Shown: positions 3,175 to 49,104 of the stretch, piece after piece
How the letters are laid out: every line of letters begins with the position of its first letter
Numbering within the stretch: the first letter of the stretch is position 1
Source: Thioalkalivibrio sp. ALMg11
GTDB taxonomy: Bacteria; Pseudomonadota; Gammaproteobacteria; Ectothiorhodospirales; Ectothiorhodospiraceae
Direction of reading: 5' to 3'
Length of the DNA: 64,000 nt
Assembly: GCF_000377905.1 (NCBI RefSeq)
Contig: NZ_KB898871.1
Location: forward strand, 221,001 to 285,000
Position numbers and translations under genes: made by a program
Notes under the pieces: model-generated
Databases searched by the model: none
Seen by the model: the letters and a program-made list of their open reading frames with translations, nothing else
What the model was told of the DNA's origin: nothing

Positions 3175-3201
3175 AGAATCACGTCCCACACGGAACGGCC
3201 G

Positions 3202-3228
3202 GAACTTTTGCAGGGTTTAGCACTCTTA
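3202..3228 (+). promoter_or_regulatory. Putative sigmaE (RpoE/AlgU)-type promoter of rpoH
   Basis: The sequence shows GAACTT at 3202-3207 (preceded by G), a 16-base spacer, then TCTTA at 3224-3228. This matches the RpoE/AlgU consensus GAACTT-N16-TCTnA. The predicted start of transcription is near 3235. E. coli rpoH also has a sigmaE-dependent promoter, so the assignment makes biological sense. The same arrangement occurs at 48293-48319 in this window. Confidence 0.75.
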
Positions 3229-3276: not shown

Positions 3277-4143
3277 ATGACTCAGGCCCTGACCACCCCG
3301 CGCATCGACATGCCCGTACCGGTGGGCAACCTCGACCACTACATGCAGGCCGTTGGCCGCATCGAGGTGCTGGACACCGAACAGGAGCGTGAACTGGCCG
3401 TGGCGCTGCACGAGCGCCAGGACCTGGATGCCGCTCGCCAGCTGATCCTGCATAACCTGCGCTTCGTGATCCACGTCGCGCGCGGCTACAAGGGGTACGG
3501 CCTGCCACTGGGCGATCTGATCCAGGAAGGCAACGTGGGCCTGATGAAGGCAGTCCGTCGTTTCGATCCGAATCAGGGCGTGCGCCTGGTGTCGTTTGCC
3601 GTGCACTGGATCCGCGCCGAGATCCACGAGTTCATCCTGCGCAACTGGCGCATCGTGAAGGTCGCGACCACCAAGGCGCAACGCAAGCTGTTCTTCAACC
3701 TGCGCAGCGCCAAGCAGCGGCTCGGCTGGCTGTCCAACGCCGAGGTCTCCGCCGTCGCCCAGGATTTGGGCGTCTCCGAAAAGGACGTCTGGGAGATGGA
3801 ACGCCGCCTGTCGAGCCAGGATCCGAGTTTCGACCCGGGCCCCGAGGCCGGCGACGAACACGGCTATCAGGCTCCGTCAGAACGCCTGAGCCTGGAGGAC
3901 CTGAGCGACGACCCGGCCAATGTGACCGAAGACGAGGACTGGGACCGTCACTATCAGGAACGCCTGAGCGAGACCCTGGGCGAGCTCGACGAGCGTTCGC
4001 GCACCATCCTGATGCGCCGCTACATGGCCGACCAGAAGGCGACGCTGCACGAGCTGGCCGCGGAGTACGGCGTCTCGGCCGAACGCATCCGCCAGATCGA
4101 GAACAGCGCGATCAAGCGCATCCGGGCCGCCTTCGACGACTGA
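3277..4143 (+). CDS. rpoH: RNA polymerase heat-shock sigma factor RpoH (sigma-32)
   Basis: Sigma-32 directs transcription of heat-shock chaperones and proteases. The 288-residue product shows sigma region 2 (DLIQEGNVGLMKAVRRFDP), the RpoH-box sequence QRKLFFNLR that separates RpoH from RpoD, and region 4 with SAERIRQIE. The ATG at 3277 gives an N terminus aligned with E. coli RpoH (14 residues before PVGNL) and has GAGG 11 bases upstream; in-frame starts at 3250 (GTG) and 3253 (ATG) are alternatives. Regulation appears to combine a sigmaE-type promoter and a CIRCE operator just upstream. Confidence 0.95.
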   Translation: MTQALTTPRIDMPVPVGNLDHYMQAVGRIEVLDTEQERELAVALHERQDLDAARQLILHNLRFVIHVARGYKGYGLPLGDLIQEGNVGLMKAVRRFDPNQGVRLVSFAVHWIRAEIHEFILRNWRIVKVATTKAQRKLFFNLRSAKQRLGWLSNAEVSAVAQDLGVSEKDVWEMERRLSSQDPSFDPGPEAGDEHGYQAPSERLSLEDLSDDPANVTEDEDWDRHYQERLSETLGELDERSRTILMRRYMADQKATLHELAAEYGVSAERIRQIENSAIKRIRAAFDD

Positions 4144-44334: not shown

Positions 44335-47040
44335 ATGTCGCAACCGCCCCTCGTCCTGGTCGACGGCTCGTCCTATCTGTTCCGCGCGTTCCACGCCCTG
44401 CCGCCACTGACCGCGCCAGATGGCGCCCCGACCGGCGCGATGATTGGCGTGGCCAACATGCTGCGCAAGCTGCGCGCGGACTACCGGCCGGAGCACATGG
44501 CGGTGGTGTTCGACGCCAAGGGCAAGACCTTCCGCGACGACATCTACCCGGAATACAAGGCCACCCGCCCCCCGATGCCGGACGAGCTGGCGGCCCAGAT
44601 CGAACCCCTGCACGAGCTGGTCCGGGCGATGGGCCTGCCGCTGCTGTGCGTCGGGGGTGTAGAGGCCGACGACGTGATCGCCACCCTGGCCGACCAGGCG
44701 GCGCGCGCCGGCCACGCGGTGGTGATCTCCACTGGCGACAAGGACCTCGCCCAGCTGGTGGATGATCGCATCACGCTGGTCAACACCATGAGCGGCGTCA
44801 CACTGGACCCGGACGGCGTGCAGGAGAAGTTCGGCGTGGCCCCGGAACAGATCGTCGACTATCTCGCGCTAATGGGCGACAGCGTCGACAACATCCCGGG
44901 CGTCGACAAGGTCGGCCCGAAGACCGCAGCCAAGTGGATCGCAAAGTACGGCGACCTCGACAGCATTCTGGAGCAGGCGGACGACCTCGGCGGCAAGATC
45001 GGCGAGAACCTGCGTGCGGCGGCCGATCGGCTCCCCACCTCACGCGAACTGATCACCGTCAAACGCGATGTCCCGCTGGAAGTCGGCCCCGACGACCTCG
45101 CGATCCAGGAGCCGGACCATGACCGCCTGCTGGAGATGGTGCGCCGCTATGGCTTCACCCGCTGGCGCGCGGAACTGGAAGAAGGGGGCAACAGCGAGGC
45201 CGCCGGGGACAACCCCGGGTCAGCGCAGGCGAAGGGAGACTACCAGACCGTTCGCGAAGAGGCCGATTTTGCCCGTCTGCTGGAGCGCCTGGAACAAGCC
45301 AAGCGCGTCGCCTTCGACACCGAGACCACCAGCCTGGACGCGATGCGCGCCGAACTGGTGGGCATGTCGTTCGCGTTCGAGCCAGGGACGGCGTACTACC
45401 TGCCGCTCGCCCATACCGGGCCGGATGCTGATCCGCAGTTGCCGTTCGACGTGACGCTGGAGCGCCTGAAGCCCTGGCTGGAATCGGCGGACCACGGCAA
45501 GCTGGGCCATCACCTGAAGTACGACCGCAACGTGCTGGGCAATCACGGCATCACCCTGCGCGGGATCCAGGACGACACCCTGCTCGAATCCTTCTGCCTG
45601 GACGCCGGCGCCAACCGCCACGACCTGGACTCCCTGGCCGAACGCCACCTGGACTACAAGACCACGCACTATGAGGACGTGGCGGGCAAGGGCGCGAAGC
45701 AGATCCCGTTCGCGGAGGTGGATATCGGCATCGCCACCGATTACGCCGGCGAGGATGCCGACATCTGCCTGCAACTGGATGCGGTGTTCCAGCCGCGCCT
45801 GAAGGAAGCGGAAGGCCCGGCCTTCGTCTACCGCGAGATCGAGATGCCGCTGATCCCGGTGCTGGCGGATATCGAGCGCGCGGGCGTGAAGGTCGACCCG
45901 GACCAGCTCGGCGCGCAGAGCCAGGCGCTGCTGACCGAGATGGAGCGCATCGAGCGCGAGGCCTTCGAGGAGGCCGGGGGCGAGTTCAACCTGGGCTCAC
46001 CCAAGCAGATCCAGGAGATCCTGTTCGAGCGCCTGGGCCTGCCGGTGCTGCGGCGCACGCCCAAGGGCCAGCCCTCCACCGCCGAGGACGTGCTGGAGCA
46101 GATGGCGGGCGACTACGCCTTGCCCCGCCTGATCCTGGAGCACCGCGGGCTGTCCAAGCTGCGCAGCACCTATACCGAGACCCTGCCCCGGCGCATCCAC
46201 CCCGAAACCGGGCGGGTGCATACCTCCTATCACCAGTCGGGTGCGGCCACCGGGCGCCTGTCGTCGTCGGAGCCGAATCTACAGAACATCCCGGTGCGCA
46301 CCGAGGCCGGGCGGCGCATCCGCCAAGCGTTCATCGCCGCAGCAGGCCACCAGCTACTGGCGGCCGACTACTCGCAGATCGAGCTGCGCATCATGGCCCA
46401 CCTGTCGCAGGACGCAGGCCTGCTGCGCGCCTTCGCCGAGGGCCAGGACATCCACCGTACCACCGCCGCCGAGGTCTTCGGCCTGGAGCCAGCAAAGGTT
46501 TCGGGCGATCAGCGCCGGGCGGCCAAGGCGATCAACTTCGGTCTGATTTACGGCATGTCCGCCTGGGGTCTGGCGCGCAACCTCGGCATCGAGCAGGGCG
46601 AGGCGCGCGAGTACATCGACCGCTATTTCAAGCGCTACCCCGGCGTGCACGACTACATGGAGAAGGCGCGCGCCAGCGGGCGCGAGAACGGCTATGTGGA
46701 GACCCTGTTCGGCCGCCGCCTGTACCTGCCGGAGATCAACAGCCGCAACGGGGCCCGGCGCCAGCAGTCCGAGCGCGTCGCGATCAACGCCCCGATGCAG
46801 GGTACGGCCGCCGATATCATCAAGCGCGCGATGGTGCGGGTCGCGAACGACCTGGCCGAGTCGCAGATCGATGCCCGCATGATCATGCAGGTGCACGATG
46901 AACTGGTATTCGAAGTCGCCGACGACGCAATGGATGCGTTGACCGACCTCGTGCGCAAGGCGATGAGCGGCGCCGCCGATCTCGACGTCGAGCTGGTGGT
47001 GGATATCGGCGTCGGCGCCAACTGGGACGACGCGCACTAA
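44335..47040 (+). CDS. polA: DNA polymerase I
   Basis: PolA performs repair synthesis and removal of RNA primers. The 901-residue product has a 5'-3' exonuclease domain (LVDGSSYLFRAFHALP, DDVIATLA), an intact 3'-5' proofreading domain (VAFDTETTSLDA) and the polymerase palm (AADYSQIELRIMAHLS, AKAINFGLIYGMSAWGL, QVHDELVFEV). Length is close to E. coli's 928. The ATG at 44335 follows a TAGAAT -10-like sequence at 44298; the open frame further upstream is not used. The next gene starts directly after its stop. Confidence 0.97.
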   Translation: MSQPPLVLVDGSSYLFRAFHALPPLTAPDGAPTGAMIGVANMLRKLRADYRPEHMAVVFDAKGKTFRDDIYPEYKATRPPMPDELAAQIEPLHELVRAMGLPLLCVGGVEADDVIATLADQAARAGHAVVISTGDKDLAQLVDDRITLVNTMSGVTLDPDGVQEKFGVAPEQIVDYLALMGDSVDNIPGVDKVGPKTAAKWIAKYGDLDSILEQADDLGGKIGENLRAAADRLPTSRELITVKRDVPLEVGPDDLAIQEPDHDRLLEMVRRYGFTRWRAELEEGGNSEAAGDNPGSAQAKGDYQTVREEADFARLLERLEQAKRVAFDTETTSLDAMRAELVGMSFAFEPGTAYYLPLAHTGPDADPQLPFDVTLERLKPWLESADHGKLGHHLKYDRNVLGNHGITLRGIQDDTLLESFCLDAGANRHDLDSLAERHLDYKTTHYEDVAGKGAKQIPFAEVDIGIATDYAGEDADICLQLDAVFQPRLKEAEGPAFVYREIEMPLIPVLADIERAGVKVDPDQLGAQSQALLTEMERIEREAFEEAGGEFNLGSPKQIQEILFERLGLPVLRRTPKGQPSTAEDVLEQMAGDYALPRLILEHRGLSKLRSTYTETLPRRIHPETGRVHTSYHQSGAATGRLSSSEPNLQNIPVRTEAGRRIRQAFIAAAGHQLLAADYSQIELRIMAHLSQDAGLLRAFAEGQDIHRTTAAEVFGLEPAKVSGDQRRAAKAINFGLIYGMSAWGLARNLGIEQGEAREYIDRYFKRYPGVHDYMEKARASGRENGYVETLFGRRLYLPEINSRNGARRQQSERVAINAPMQGTAADIIKRAMVRVANDLAESQIDARMIMQVHDELVFEVADDAMDALTDLVRKAMSGAADLDVELVVDIGVGANWDDAH

Positions 47041-47550
47041 ATGGCCGGCTCGCGCGCCCGACGCTTCAACCGGATCGCCGCCTGGCTGGTAGCGGCCCTG
47101 CTACTGGCAGTCGCCTGGGTGCTAGCCGAACAGTATCTGGATACCGGCGGTTCGGGCGACGTCACGATCCTCCAGCCGGGCGAGTGCGATCTGAACGCCG
47201 GCCCCTGCACTGCCACCCATCCGGCGGGCGGCACGCTCACCCTGGAGATCACCCCGCGCCCGGTGCCGATGCTGCAACCTCTGAGCCTGACCCTGGATCT
47301 GGATGCGACCGCGCGGACCCGCCTGGGCGACCCGGAGGCCCTGGAACTGGACCTGGCCGGGGTGGAGATGTACATGGGTTTTCAGCGCCCACGACTGGAG
47401 CACGCCGGCGACGGGCGCTACACCGGCGAGACCACCCTGCCCATCTGCACCACCGAATCCATGACCTGGGCGGCGACCGTCATGCCCGCGGGCGATCCGG
47501 ACGGTGCACGGGTCCAGTTTCGCTTCGTCACCCGCCGTGACCCTGACTGA
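47041..47550 (+). CDS. Hypothetical membrane-anchored periplasmic protein next to SCO1
   Basis: The 169-residue product starts at the base after the polA stop codon (TAAATG). It has one N-terminal membrane helix (about residues 10-29), then a beta-rich periplasmic domain with cysteines in ECDLNAGPC and ICTTE and a Met-containing segment EMYMGFQRP. Cys and Met placement and the SCO1 gene 9 bases downstream suggest a role in copper delivery to oxidase, but I do not recognise a family. Ends in RRDPD. Confidence 0.75.
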   Translation: MAGSRARRFNRIAAWLVAALLLAVAWVLAEQYLDTGGSGDVTILQPGECDLNAGPCTATHPAGGTLTLEITPRPVPMLQPLSLTLDLDATARTRLGDPEALELDLAGVEMYMGFQRPRLEHAGDGRYTGETTLPICTTESMTWAATVMPAGDPDGARVQFRFVTRRDPD

Positions 47551-47559
47551 GGAACCGCC

Positions 47560-48207
47560 ATGCAGCGCATACCGCTGAGCAACCTGCTGTGGGGTCTGGC
47601 CGTACTGGCGGCCGGGGCCCTGCTGGTATTCGTGATGCTGCGCCCGGCACCGCCCCCGCTGCCCCAGGGCGCGGACCACGAGCGCCTGCCGGTAGCCGAG
47701 GGGATCGCCGGCGGCCCGATCGAGCTCCCTCTATCGACCGAGGGTGATGCGTTCCGGCTCGCGGATCTGGAGGGGCAATACGTGTGGCTTTATTTCGGCT
47801 ACACCGCCTGCCCGGATGCCTGCCCGACCAGTCTGGGCTGGATCAGCGCCGCACTGGATCGTCTGCCGGAGAACCTGGAGGATCACGTTGCCGCCGTACT
47901 GGTGAGCGTCGACCCCGAACGCGATGATGCGGAACGCCTGGAGACCTATGTCGGCCACTTCCACCCGGCCATCCAGGCCGCGACGGGTTCGCACGAGGAG
48001 TTACGACCGATCACCGAACGCTACGGGGTATTCTACGAACGCACCGAGATCGACTCGGCCATGGGGTATGTGGTGGATCACAGCTCGTCCACCTACCTGA
48101 TCGGGCCCGAAGGCGAACTACTGGAGATCCACCCGCACGGCACATCGGCAAGCGAGCTGATGGCCACCCTGCAGGCGCGAATCGAGGCCGGCGAGGGCCG
48201 CGAATAA
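47560..48207 (+). CDS. SCO1/SenC/PrrC family copper chaperone
   Basis: SCO proteins are membrane-anchored thioredoxin-fold chaperones that insert copper into oxidase subunits. The 215-residue product has an N-terminal membrane helix, the copper motif CPDACP (GYTACPDACPTSLGWI, two Cys four residues apart) and the conserved His in YVVDHSSSTYLIGP. All three copper ligands are present. It follows the hypothetical gene by 9 bases, forming polA-hyp-sco1. It may serve the cbb3 oxidase of this window or another oxidase elsewhere. Confidence 0.9.
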   Translation: MQRIPLSNLLWGLAVLAAGALLVFVMLRPAPPPLPQGADHERLPVAEGIAGGPIELPLSTEGDAFRLADLEGQYVWLYFGYTACPDACPTSLGWISAALDRLPENLEDHVAAVLVSVDPERDDAERLETYVGHFHPAIQAATGSHEELRPITERYGVFYERTEIDSAMGYVVDHSSSTYLIGPEGELLEIHPHGTSASELMATLQARIEAGEGRE

Positions 48208-48292
48208 GTTCGCCCCTTCCGCGCCGGACGCTTGTGTGAGCCTGGGGCAATCGATTCTGTGAACAAATTCGCAATCGAGACGGATCCGGCCG

Positions 48293-48319
48293 GAACTTTG
48301 CCCGGACGACGCTTTCTCA
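48293..48319 (+). promoter_or_regulatory. Putative sigmaE/AlgU-type promoter of the candidate sRNA
   Basis: GAACTT (48293-48298, preceded by G), 16 bases, then TCTCA (48315-48319): a full match to the RpoE/AlgU consensus GAACTT-N16-TCTnA and the same layout as the rpoH promoter. The start of transcription is predicted near 48326. A weaker sigma70-like pair (TTGCCC, 18 bases, TCATAA) overlaps it. Confidence 0.75.
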
Positions 48320-48325
48320 CTTCAT

Positions 48326-48440
48326 AAGCGCTCTAGCCCAGCGCGGCCCGCTTCTCTCCCTGAGCGGGCAATAGGCCTCTCCACCCCCTGTAGAGGCCGA
48401 AATTAGCCCCGGTCCCACCCCAAGGCCGGGGCTTCTTTTT
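48326..48440 (+). ncRNA. Candidate small RNA in the polA-engB interval (ErsA/Spot 42 locus)
   Basis: A 115-base segment with a promoter at one end and an intrinsic terminator at the other, holding three consecutive hairpins. Stems are 48346-48352 / 48363-48369, 48374-48380 / 48392-48398 and 48405-48412 / 48426-48433. The loops are C-rich (TCTCTCCCTG, CCACCCCCTGT, TCCCACCCCAAGG) and could pair with ribosome-binding sites. The position near polA and engB is that of Spot 42 in enterics and ErsA in Pseudomonas; ErsA is sigma22-dependent, as the promoter here predicts. No ORF of note is inside. Homology is inferred from place and promoter, not from sequence alignment. Confidence 0.7.
48405..48440 (+). 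terminator. Rho-independent terminator (3' end of candidate sRNA)
   Basis: AGCCCCGG pairs with CCGGGGCT around a 13-base loop, followed by TCTTTTT. It points along the plus strand. Confidence 0.88.
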
Positions 48441-48489
48441 GTCCAGACCTCTTGGCCCAACGACTGACACCCGGACCCATGCCCGCGGG

Positions 48490-49104
48490 TCAGTCGGACT
48501 CGTGGTCGACCAGCCAGTCGCCGAGCAGGCCGCGCAAATCGTCCACGCCCTGGTTTTTCAGGGAGGAAAAGGTCTGCAGCGTCGCCTCAACGCCCATCAC
48601 CTCGAGCTCGCCATGGGCCTTGCGCAGCTGCTGGTCGGCCTCCTGGCGCGAGAGTTTGTCCGCCTTGGTCAACAGGCAGTGCAGGCGGCAGCGCTCCAGC
48701 GGGACCCATTCCAGCAACTGGCGATCCAGGTCCGTCAGCGGGCGGCGGATATCCATGATCAGCACCAGCCCGATCAGGTTTTGGCGCGTCCGCAGATACC
48801 CTCCCAGCAACTGGTCCCACTCGGCCCGCTTGCCGGCCGAGACCTTGGCAAAGCCGTAACCCGGCAGGTCCACCAGCCGCCAGTGCTCTGCCGGCGGCAG
48901 GCTGAACAGATTGATCTCCTGAGTGCGCCCCGGCGTGCGCCCGACCCGCGCCAGCGCCTTGCGCCCGCACAGGGCATTCAGGGCGCTCGACTTGCCGGCA
49001 TTGGAGCGGCCAGCAAAGGCGATCTCGACGCCGGCATCCTCGGGGAGCTGGGATAGCTGAGCCACCCCGCGCATGAAGGCGGTCTCGCGGAATCGGGGTT
49101 GCAT
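48490..49104 (-). CDS. engB: Ribosome biogenesis GTP-binding protein EngB (YsxC/YihA)
   Basis: EngB is a small essential GTPase for large ribosomal subunit assembly. The 204-residue product has G1 GRSNAGKSS near residue 33, the TPGRTQEINLF switch region, G3 DLPGYGFA, G4 TKADKL and the late FSSLKNQGVDDLR motif. Length matches the family. It is convergent with the sRNA/sco1 side and divergent from cytochrome c4, the usual gammaproteobacterial context. Confidence 0.95.
   Translation of the reverse strand: MQPRFRETAFMRGVAQLSQLPEDAGVEIAFAGRSNAGKSSALNALCGRKALARVGRTPGRTQEINLFSLPPAEHWRLVDLPGYGFAKVSAGKRAEWDQLLGGYLRTRQNLIGLVLIMDIRRPLTDLDRQLLEWVPLERCRLHCLLTKADKLSRQEADQQLRKAHGELEVMGVEATLQTFSSLKNQGVDDLRGLLGDWLVDHESD

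Follow-up and report, generated by a model that had tools for sequence, protein, structure and literature searches.

A probable σE-type small RNA gene beside engB in Thioalkalivibrio sp. ALMg11 and its likely kinship with anti-hemB, ErsA, and sX13

The window that we analyzed, a 64 kb stretch of the genome of Thioalkalivibrio sp. ALMg11, apparently a sulfur bacterium of soda lakes, very probably contains a gene for a small regulatory RNA (48324..48440, plus strand). We propose that this RNA is a σE-driven, trans-acting RNA of about 115 nt, that its C-rich loops would pair with G-rich ribosome-binding sites, that it probably receives a CRP-like input, and that it probably forms one family with anti-hemB, ErsA, and sX13. 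We put the probability of this reading at roughly 0.78. The gene is a well-conserved small RNA gene of a known kind, and it is new for the genus in the literature that we examined. (The main text of PMC11109978, which describes a search for ncRNAs in a Thioalkalivibrio genome, does not mention engB, sX13, or anti-hemB.) Three points are new here: how far the family reaches, that it is probably akin to anti-hemB, ErsA, and sX13, and that 8 of the 16 loci from the genus have a CRP-like palindrome upstream.

Fold, conservation, and spread

The element occupies positions 48292-48440 of the plus strand and consists of a GGAACTT box, a 16-base spacer, TCTCA, four hairpins, and a T-rich tail. The RNA itself aligns to positions 1-113 of our covariance model R2 with 105.8 bits, its own sequence being among the R2 seeds. 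Hairpin 1, at the 5' end (48328..48344), has a 5-bp stem and the loop CTAGCCC. Hairpin 2 (48346..48369) has a near-invariant stem and the loop TCTCTCCCTG (48353-48362), and hairpin 3 (48374..48398) has a strongly covarying stem and the loop CCACCCCCTGT (48381-48391). Hairpin 4 (48406..48440) is an intrinsic terminator, with a C-rich loop, CCACCCCAA, at 48415-48423 and a T-rich tail at 48433-48440. A first-pass annotation of this DNA had described three stem-loops with C-rich loops and a terminator. These are all present where it placed them, but the total is four, as the 5' hairpin at 48328-48344 had been overlooked. A simple terminator scan did not report hairpin 4, because its 9-base loop exceeds the length that the scan allows. 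The folding energy of 48320-48445 is −56.5 kcal/mol (z = −5.23), and none of 200 shuffled sequences folded equally well.

The RNA lies in the gap between the end of a SCO1/SenC-family protein gene (47560..48207, plus strand), which is its upstream neighbor, and engB (48490..49104, minus strand), which encodes a YihA/YsxC-type GTPase. engB is convergent with the RNA and is its commonest neighbor in relatives. As the downstream gene is convergent, we rejected a riboswitch or leader. The gap had been described as free of genes and the locus as polA-engB. We found no evident gene either, but minus-strand frames at 48011-48274 and 48093-48320 enter the left part of the gap. Also, engB does adjoin the RNA, but polA (DNA polymerase I; 44335..47040, plus strand) is not adjacent: the SCO1-like gene and a 169-aa ORF (47041..47550, plus strand) intervene. 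This ORF has no match in Pfam or NCBIfam.

The fold is conserved by compensatory changes. We built a covariance model, R1, from 10 sequences of the genus with the structure written from the fold, and ran it at E ≤ 0.05 on 100 of 180 loci. (E-values from both R1 and R2 are approximate.) It matched 99 of these. The exception, a Chloroflexi record (L049), had none of six proteins searched nearby, and we rejected it as a chance pattern match. To thin the set to 88 loci, we left out L049, near-duplicates (L003, L010, L012, L020, L021, L028, L040, and L156), and weaker matches (L035, L139, and L157). At E ≤ 2e-4, R1 gave 94 matches in 88 of these 88 loci. Of the loci, 16 belong to the genus, and 7 of the 16 are seeds. 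In the alignment of these 94 sequences (A4), 95.2% of 2531 cells were paired, versus 74.7% in shuffles, and 25 of 28 pairs had changes on both sides, versus 17.7 in shuffles; because A4 was fitted to the structure, these counts lean towards the structure. If the partner was slid by 1-3 columns, pairing was at most 50% and at most 83 cells had two-sided changes. In a MAFFT alignment (A1), 8 of 24 predicted pairs had changes on both sides. The first-pass annotation had made its reading depend on compensatory changes in the stems of related species; with 496 two-sided cells versus 121 in shuffles, this test did not refute it, and the covariation speaks against a chance structure, which we rejected.

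The helices differ in how they vary. Helices 1, 3, and 4 have two-sided changes at every pair. Helix 2 is nearly invariant: 3 of its 7 pairs never vary, and identity is 0.90 in the stem and 0.89 in the loop, a conservation that is partly selected, as many loci were chosen by a hairpin-2 pattern. CCC is found in loop 1 of 94/94 sequences, in loop 2 of 57, and in the terminator loop (loop 3) of 63, and 80 of the 94 sequences have at least two CCC-bearing loops.

The RNA is widespread. Of 58 relatives searched at the DNA level, 35 had a match: 27 of 30 in the genus (counting the source genome), all 7 other members of the family, and 1 of 21 beyond it. The hairpin-2 pattern CCCGCTNNNCTCCCTGAGCGGG, which is blind to the neighborhood, was found at at least 120 loci among 84,980 species genomes. 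Of 120 listed loci, 101 had EngB as a neighbor, 89 a cytochrome c4 relative, and 54 PolA, and 108 had at least one of six proteins searched. The named records among them include Thioalkalivibrio (ALJ3, ARh2, and several MAGs), Ectothiorhodospira mobilis, Chromobacterium, Aquitalea, and Collimonas, as well as Methylobacillus, Thiobacillus, Gallionellaceae, Rhodocyclaceae, and Steroidobacteraceae, and the covariance model based on the genus finds the RNA across Beta- and Gammaproteobacteria. Relatives of the 169-aa ORF lie near 7 of the at least 120 pattern loci.

The search of related genomes with a covariance model, which had been proposed as a check, gave a similarly broad picture. R2, which was built from the 94 sequences, matched 118 of 232 genomes of the class (99 of 196 genera) at E ≤ 1e-4, where some seeds come from the genomes searched. 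The Rfam anti-hemB model, which is free of this circle, matched 108 of the 232 at E ≤ 1e-3, 11 of them over its cut-off; below the cut-off, it also matched 3 of 14 control genomes, including E. coli and Deinobacterium, and sub-cut-off Rfam matches are partly noise. In a sample of the phylum, R2 matched 22 of 299 genomes, 21 of the same class and 1 outside it.

EngB was found in 199 of the 232 genomes of the class, in 150 of them among the matches listed, so we counted synteny in the 86 of 118 R2-positive genomes with EngB among the matches listed. In 64 of these 86, the RNA lies no more than 478 bp from engB, with a median distance of 44 bp. It is 3' of engB and convergent in 58, 3' on the same strand in 5, and 5' in 1. 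In 4 others it is farther away on the same contig (2,528 bp in G022), and in 18 the two are on different contigs, either genuinely or as a result of fragmentation. Also, 9 of 20 chosen engB loci from R2-negative genomes had a local R2 match (E < 1e-3), so 118/232 is likely a lower bound.

Some genomes carry more than one copy, and 6 of the 64 have 2-4 copies beside engB. G190 has four tandem copies by engB (L233 1089-1843, contig C33), and a separate GGAAC box and terminator go with every copy. Two copies on opposite strands, divergent instead of tandem, are found in L123 (2933-3438) and in L027 (1145-1610). Finally, G449, of the same class, has five R2 matches on three contigs, which suggests a dispersed paralogue family.

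Promoter and CRP-like palindrome

The RNA is most likely transcribed from a σE/AlgU-type promoter, with the −35 box GGAACTT at 48292..48298 and the −10 box TCTCA at 48315..48319 (both plus strand), from which we infer a start near 48325-48327. The first-pass annotation had reported this promoter, and GGAACTT-N16-TCTCA is indeed present, with its first base at 48292 instead of 48293. The pattern GGAACTTN{15,17}TCTSA has a single match in the 64 kb window, at the RNA (0.04 expected). The looser GGAACTTN{15,17}TCTNA has four matches in the source genome (G000) and none for a reversed control. These are at the RNA, before rpoH, over the conserved coding end of metK, and elsewhere on contig C4. The rpoH match serves as a yardstick for the RNA promoter: GGAACTT-N16-TCTTA (3201..3228, plus strand) stands directly 5' of rpoH (σ32; 3280..4143, plus strand; 384 bits against the RpoH equivalog model). 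In E. coli, control of rpoH by σE is classical. The match before rpoH is also found in G003 and G022. Across four genomes of the genus, there were 13 matches to the promoter pattern versus 2 for the control, among them the RNA promoter in 4/4 genomes and the rpoH promoter in 3/4.

The promoter box is conserved with the RNA. Among the 93 loci with enough upstream sequence, 69 have GAACT 20-45 bases 5' of the RNA, versus 4, 0, and 4 in control windows upstream and 1, 1, and 2 for the reverse complements. (This count is slightly biased for about 27 of the 93 rows, as the promoter stretch was part of the query that yielded the first locus set.) GAAC is at the expected place in 79 of the 93 and absent in 14. 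In 61 of 80, a −10 element, xTCxxA, follows the G of GAAC at a distance of 21 bases, a placement that was chosen as the best fit without a control. Within the genus, GAACT is kept in 24 of 24 rows, four of which have GAACTC.

The source genome encodes RpoE (308.5 bits against a cut-off of 236) next to RseA_N and MucB/RseB proteins, and it has a gene for Hfq. By sequence, then, GGAACTT and TCTNA boxes, as expected for a member of the σE regulon, stand in a genome with RpoE and RseA. The conservation of GAACT, the motif before rpoH, and the presence of RpoE, RseA, and RseB support the σE-type promoter that had been proposed, and the RNA would likely be switched on by envelope stress. Some observations weigh against this reading: 14 of the 93 loci lack GAAC at the expected place, ncS04 (the anti-hemB RNA of B. 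cenocepacia) showed no significant change across seven tabulated conditions, and short stress, including SDS, largely left the small RNAs of that study uninduced (PMC5688073).

The earlier description of the regulation overlooked a CRP-like palindrome, TGTGAACAAATTCGCA (48258..48273, plus strand), which matches 9 of 10 consensus positions. Its center is 27 bp 5' of GAACTT, or about −60 relative to the expected transcription start. A site at about −60 fits class I activation. Palindromes with 9 or more matches to the 10 positions of TGTGA-N6-TCACA are found 5' of GAAC at 8 of the 16 loci from the genus, with the center 27-28 bp from GAAC in seven of them. (In the eighth, L009, our script gave a distance of 19 from another GAAC, and the plain rows show the common place.) None of 100 shuffles was as good at any of the 8 loci, which are close relatives and not eight independent finds. 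The flanks look less conserved than the palindrome. The source genome encodes CRP (equivalog, 322 bits, cut-off 266) and Fnr. We propose that in the RNAs most like the window RNA, the operator probably adds a second input, from the carbon or energy state. A perfect 16-bp palindrome, GTGAAAATATTTTCAC, is also found 5' of GAACTT at an ErsA locus that is over the Rfam cut-off (L232, 1422-1437); it resembles the CRP-like site of the window, and its spacing differs.

Could control be mainly by CRP, or by another CRP/FNR protein together with the growth state, with the σE-type box minor or ancestral? Spot 42, which has the same genomic place, is under CRP (PMC3771888). Also, ncS04 did not change significantly in the tabulated conditions (PMC5688073), CRP and Fnr are encoded, and shuffling does not reproduce the palindrome. 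However, half of the genus loci (8 of 16) lack the palindrome or have a degraded form of it (scores of 5-7), and it is not general beyond the genus, where only 5 of 77 other matches have at least 8 of 10 positions. In contrast, none of the 24 rows from the genus has lost GAACT, and the 8 palindrome loci are not independent. Control mainly by CRP seems unlikely, and we prefer σE as the main regulator.

Mode of action and alternatives

In our proposal, RNA polymerase with RpoE would transcribe about 115 nt, starting near 48325-48327 and stopping at the terminator (48440). Envelope stress would free σE from RseA, and the RNA would be made. By analogy with sX13, the C-rich apical loops, chiefly CUCCCUG in hairpin 2, would then pair with G-rich ribosome-binding sites, which would lower the translation of several mRNAs. 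The CRP-like operator at about −60 probably ties this output to the carbon or energy state as well in those RNAs that most resemble the window RNA. The steps of this mechanism that come from sequence are the conservation of the promoter box, of the four-hairpin fold with its compensatory changes, of the C-rich loops, and of the place 3' of engB, usually convergent.

The computed pairing energies (without a control) are −17.6 kcal/mol for loop 1 with its full complement and, with the site AAGGAGGUGA, −6.5 for loop 1, −10.7 for loop 2, and −9.3 for loop 3. For targets, we searched eight genomes of the genus for the loop 1 complement CAGGGAGA, followed by N2-10 and ATG. There were 132 matches (23 in G000) versus 8 for a reversed control, but this excess proves nothing because the string itself resembles a ribosome-binding site. 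Of the 21 matches in G000 that we inspected (out of 23), 10 open an ORF of at least 100 aa. One of these is an MlaE permease (Pfam); others look by eye like photolyase-, ProV-, and ACT-type proteins, and some may be wrong-strand frames. Among the target strings that are repeated between genomes, most of those inspected open short frames. One string opens frames of unlike lengths (104-212 aa) in three genomes (L309-L311), and another opens a similar long ORF in two (L304 and L326). The target prediction that had been suggested for the loops, run with loop 1 in these eight genomes, thus gave no convincing conserved target. hfq is a published target of sX13, and the hfq start in L282 has no obvious loop complement by eye. 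Loops that resemble an anti-Shine-Dalgarno sequence would fit many genes, and the loops would not explain the specificity of the RNA.

Another possibility, to which we give rather little weight, is that the RNA acts mainly by binding protein, for example by sequestering Hfq or a different RNA-binding protein via its repeated C-rich loops, and not by pairing with mRNAs. The stem and loop of hairpin 2 are near-invariant, beyond what pairing alone would need, and repeated C-rich loops and 2-4 copies in some genomes would suit titration. Hfq binding has been reported for ncS04 (PMC5688073). However, the conservation of hairpin 2 is inflated by the choice of loci that have the hairpin-2 pattern. 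Also, sX13 acts via its C-rich loops on G-rich motifs in its targets, and it does so without Hfq: mutations in its loops alter reporters of targets with G-rich motifs (PMC3771888). Pairing by the C-rich loops is the action that we favor.

The element could instead be a terminator region that insulates two convergent units, with the promoter a chance match, as convergent genes do flank it and its 3' end forms a strong GC-rich hairpin with a T run. This is very unlikely given the conservation of the promoter box (69 of 93 loci versus at most 4 in controls) and of the loops and the separate 5' hairpin. Also, the relative ncS04 is a discrete transcript of 105 nt (PMC5688073), and each of the four copies in G190 has a GGAAC box and a terminator of its own. 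Least credible of all is a small protein: E. coli spf is annotated with SpfP inside it, but no ATG-started ORF of at least 10 codons is present on either strand of 48326-48440, and the stems vary by compensatory and non-triplet length changes.

Relation to named RNA families

At gathering thresholds, Rfam reports a tRNA alone in the window. At relaxed thresholds, the best match in the gap is anti-hemB, followed weakly by αr7, αr14, 6C, sX13, and others. The first-pass annotation had named ErsA in Pseudomonas and Spot 42 in enterics as occupants of this place; it passed over anti-hemB, the best match, and sX13.

The window RNA matches anti-hemB (RF02837) with 39.3 bits (E = 5.4e-8). This is below the gathering cut-off of 49.5 bits, which two other Thioalkalivibrio loci (L054 and L106) do not reach either. 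Of 18 loci tested, out of at least 120, 10 pass the cut-off, including Ectothiorhodospira mobilis (L040). The loci over the cut-off share the fold and the place by engB with the window RNA, and one model (R1 or R2) covers both, whereas the Rfam model has 81 positions and starts at hairpin 2 of the window RNA. In B. cenocepacia, the transcript (ncS04) was identified by dRNA-seq, RACE, and Northern blot (PMC5688073). The name misleads at the one locus that we read (L075, from Collimonas): there, the anti-hemB-type RNA and hemB diverge, the RNA converges with engB, and it is not antisense within the ALAD domain of hemB.

ErsA (RF01719, Pseudomon-1) is a weaker match by score (13.9 bits, E = 2.7, versus a cut-off of 50 bits). 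In print, ErsA has the polA-engB place and is controlled by σ22. It is predicted to pair with anr via a U-rich stretch between stem-loops, not via C-rich loops, and it needs Hfq. By sequence, the two RNAs share a promoter type, as GAACTT is also found at L232, an ErsA locus over the cut-off. RF01719 matched 8 of the 232 genomes of the class and 0 of 14 controls. One match is over the cut-off (G182) and seven are below it, these seven all beside engB, and R2 matches all 8 loci. At the true ErsA locus, R2 scored 22.5 bits (E = 1e-4 in 25 kb), and the loops differ from those of the window RNA. A relation to ErsA is thus backed by sub-cut-off cross-matches at the engB place.

The window RNA scores 22.7 bits against sX13 (RF02232), whose cut-off is 50 bits. 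sX13 is 115 nt long, lies downstream of polA, and has three stems with C-rich loops (PMC3771888). Three stems with C-rich apical loops are common to both RNAs, and the window RNA adds the 5' hairpin. RF02232 matched 12 of the 232 genomes, two of them over the cut-off, and 1 of 14 controls (below the cut-off). R2 scores the two loci over the cut-off at 30.3 and 26.9 bits. These two lack a GGAACTT box and an adjoining engB, which is about 70 kb away on the contig in G048 and on another contig in G184. Of the ten sub-cut-off matches, five are on R2 places (G190, G109, G157, G243, and G057), one is beside an R2 place (G100), one has a local R2 match of 20.8 bits (G241), and the others are elsewhere (G143, G051, and G095). 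The four-copy locus of G190 has sub-cut-off matches to several families: anti-hemB (35.9-41.8 bits), sX13 (48.3), ErsA (37.1), and αr14 (38.0).

More distant candidates share the place or the loops. αr7 (RF02342) and αr14 (RF02344) match the window RNA with 24.5 and 23.6 bits, far below their cut-offs; αr7 is adjacent to polA and has C-rich loops (PMC3771888). Spot 42 (RF00021) does occupy this place in enterics, as had been claimed: the order in E. coli is polA-spf-yihA(engB), with the RNA convergent with engB, whereas in the window two ORFs stand between polA and the RNA. RF00021 is not among the 17 Rfam matches listed for the gap. E. coli spf is the top R2 match in 6 kb (16.8 bits, E = 7.5e-4), but its match lacks hairpin 2, and Spot 42 has no C-rich loops.

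Taken by sequence, the window RNA is probably related to anti-hemB, ErsA, and sX13, as one family that is split in Rfam. In the literature that we searched, no paper names both ErsA and sX13, although this does not prove that the link is new to print. The data suggest that the family is wider, and its promoter logic clearer, than the names in use imply: one covariance model leads to about half of 232 genomes of the class, by engB in most of those that could be placed and mostly with one promoter type. Separate names become one testable family, whose regulator (RpoE) and mode of action can be predicted. If our reading of the promoter is true, an RNA arm of the σE response is widely conserved well beyond the pseudomonads. 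Going further, we lean slightly towards the view that the window RNA would form one ancient lineage with anti-hemB, ErsA, and sX13, and Spot 42 and αr7 may belong to it as well. This lineage would have become fixed beside polA/engB, ancestrally under σE, would occur in roughly half the genomes of Gammaproteobacteria as GTDB defines the class, and would have been duplicated in place from time to time. The RNA would then be a conserved post-transcriptional arm of the σE response that acts by C-rich loops on ribosome-binding sites and that carries a CRP operator in part of Thioalkalivibrio. If this lineage and the reading of the CRP site are both true, envelope state and carbon or energy state would meet at one RNA in that part of the genus.
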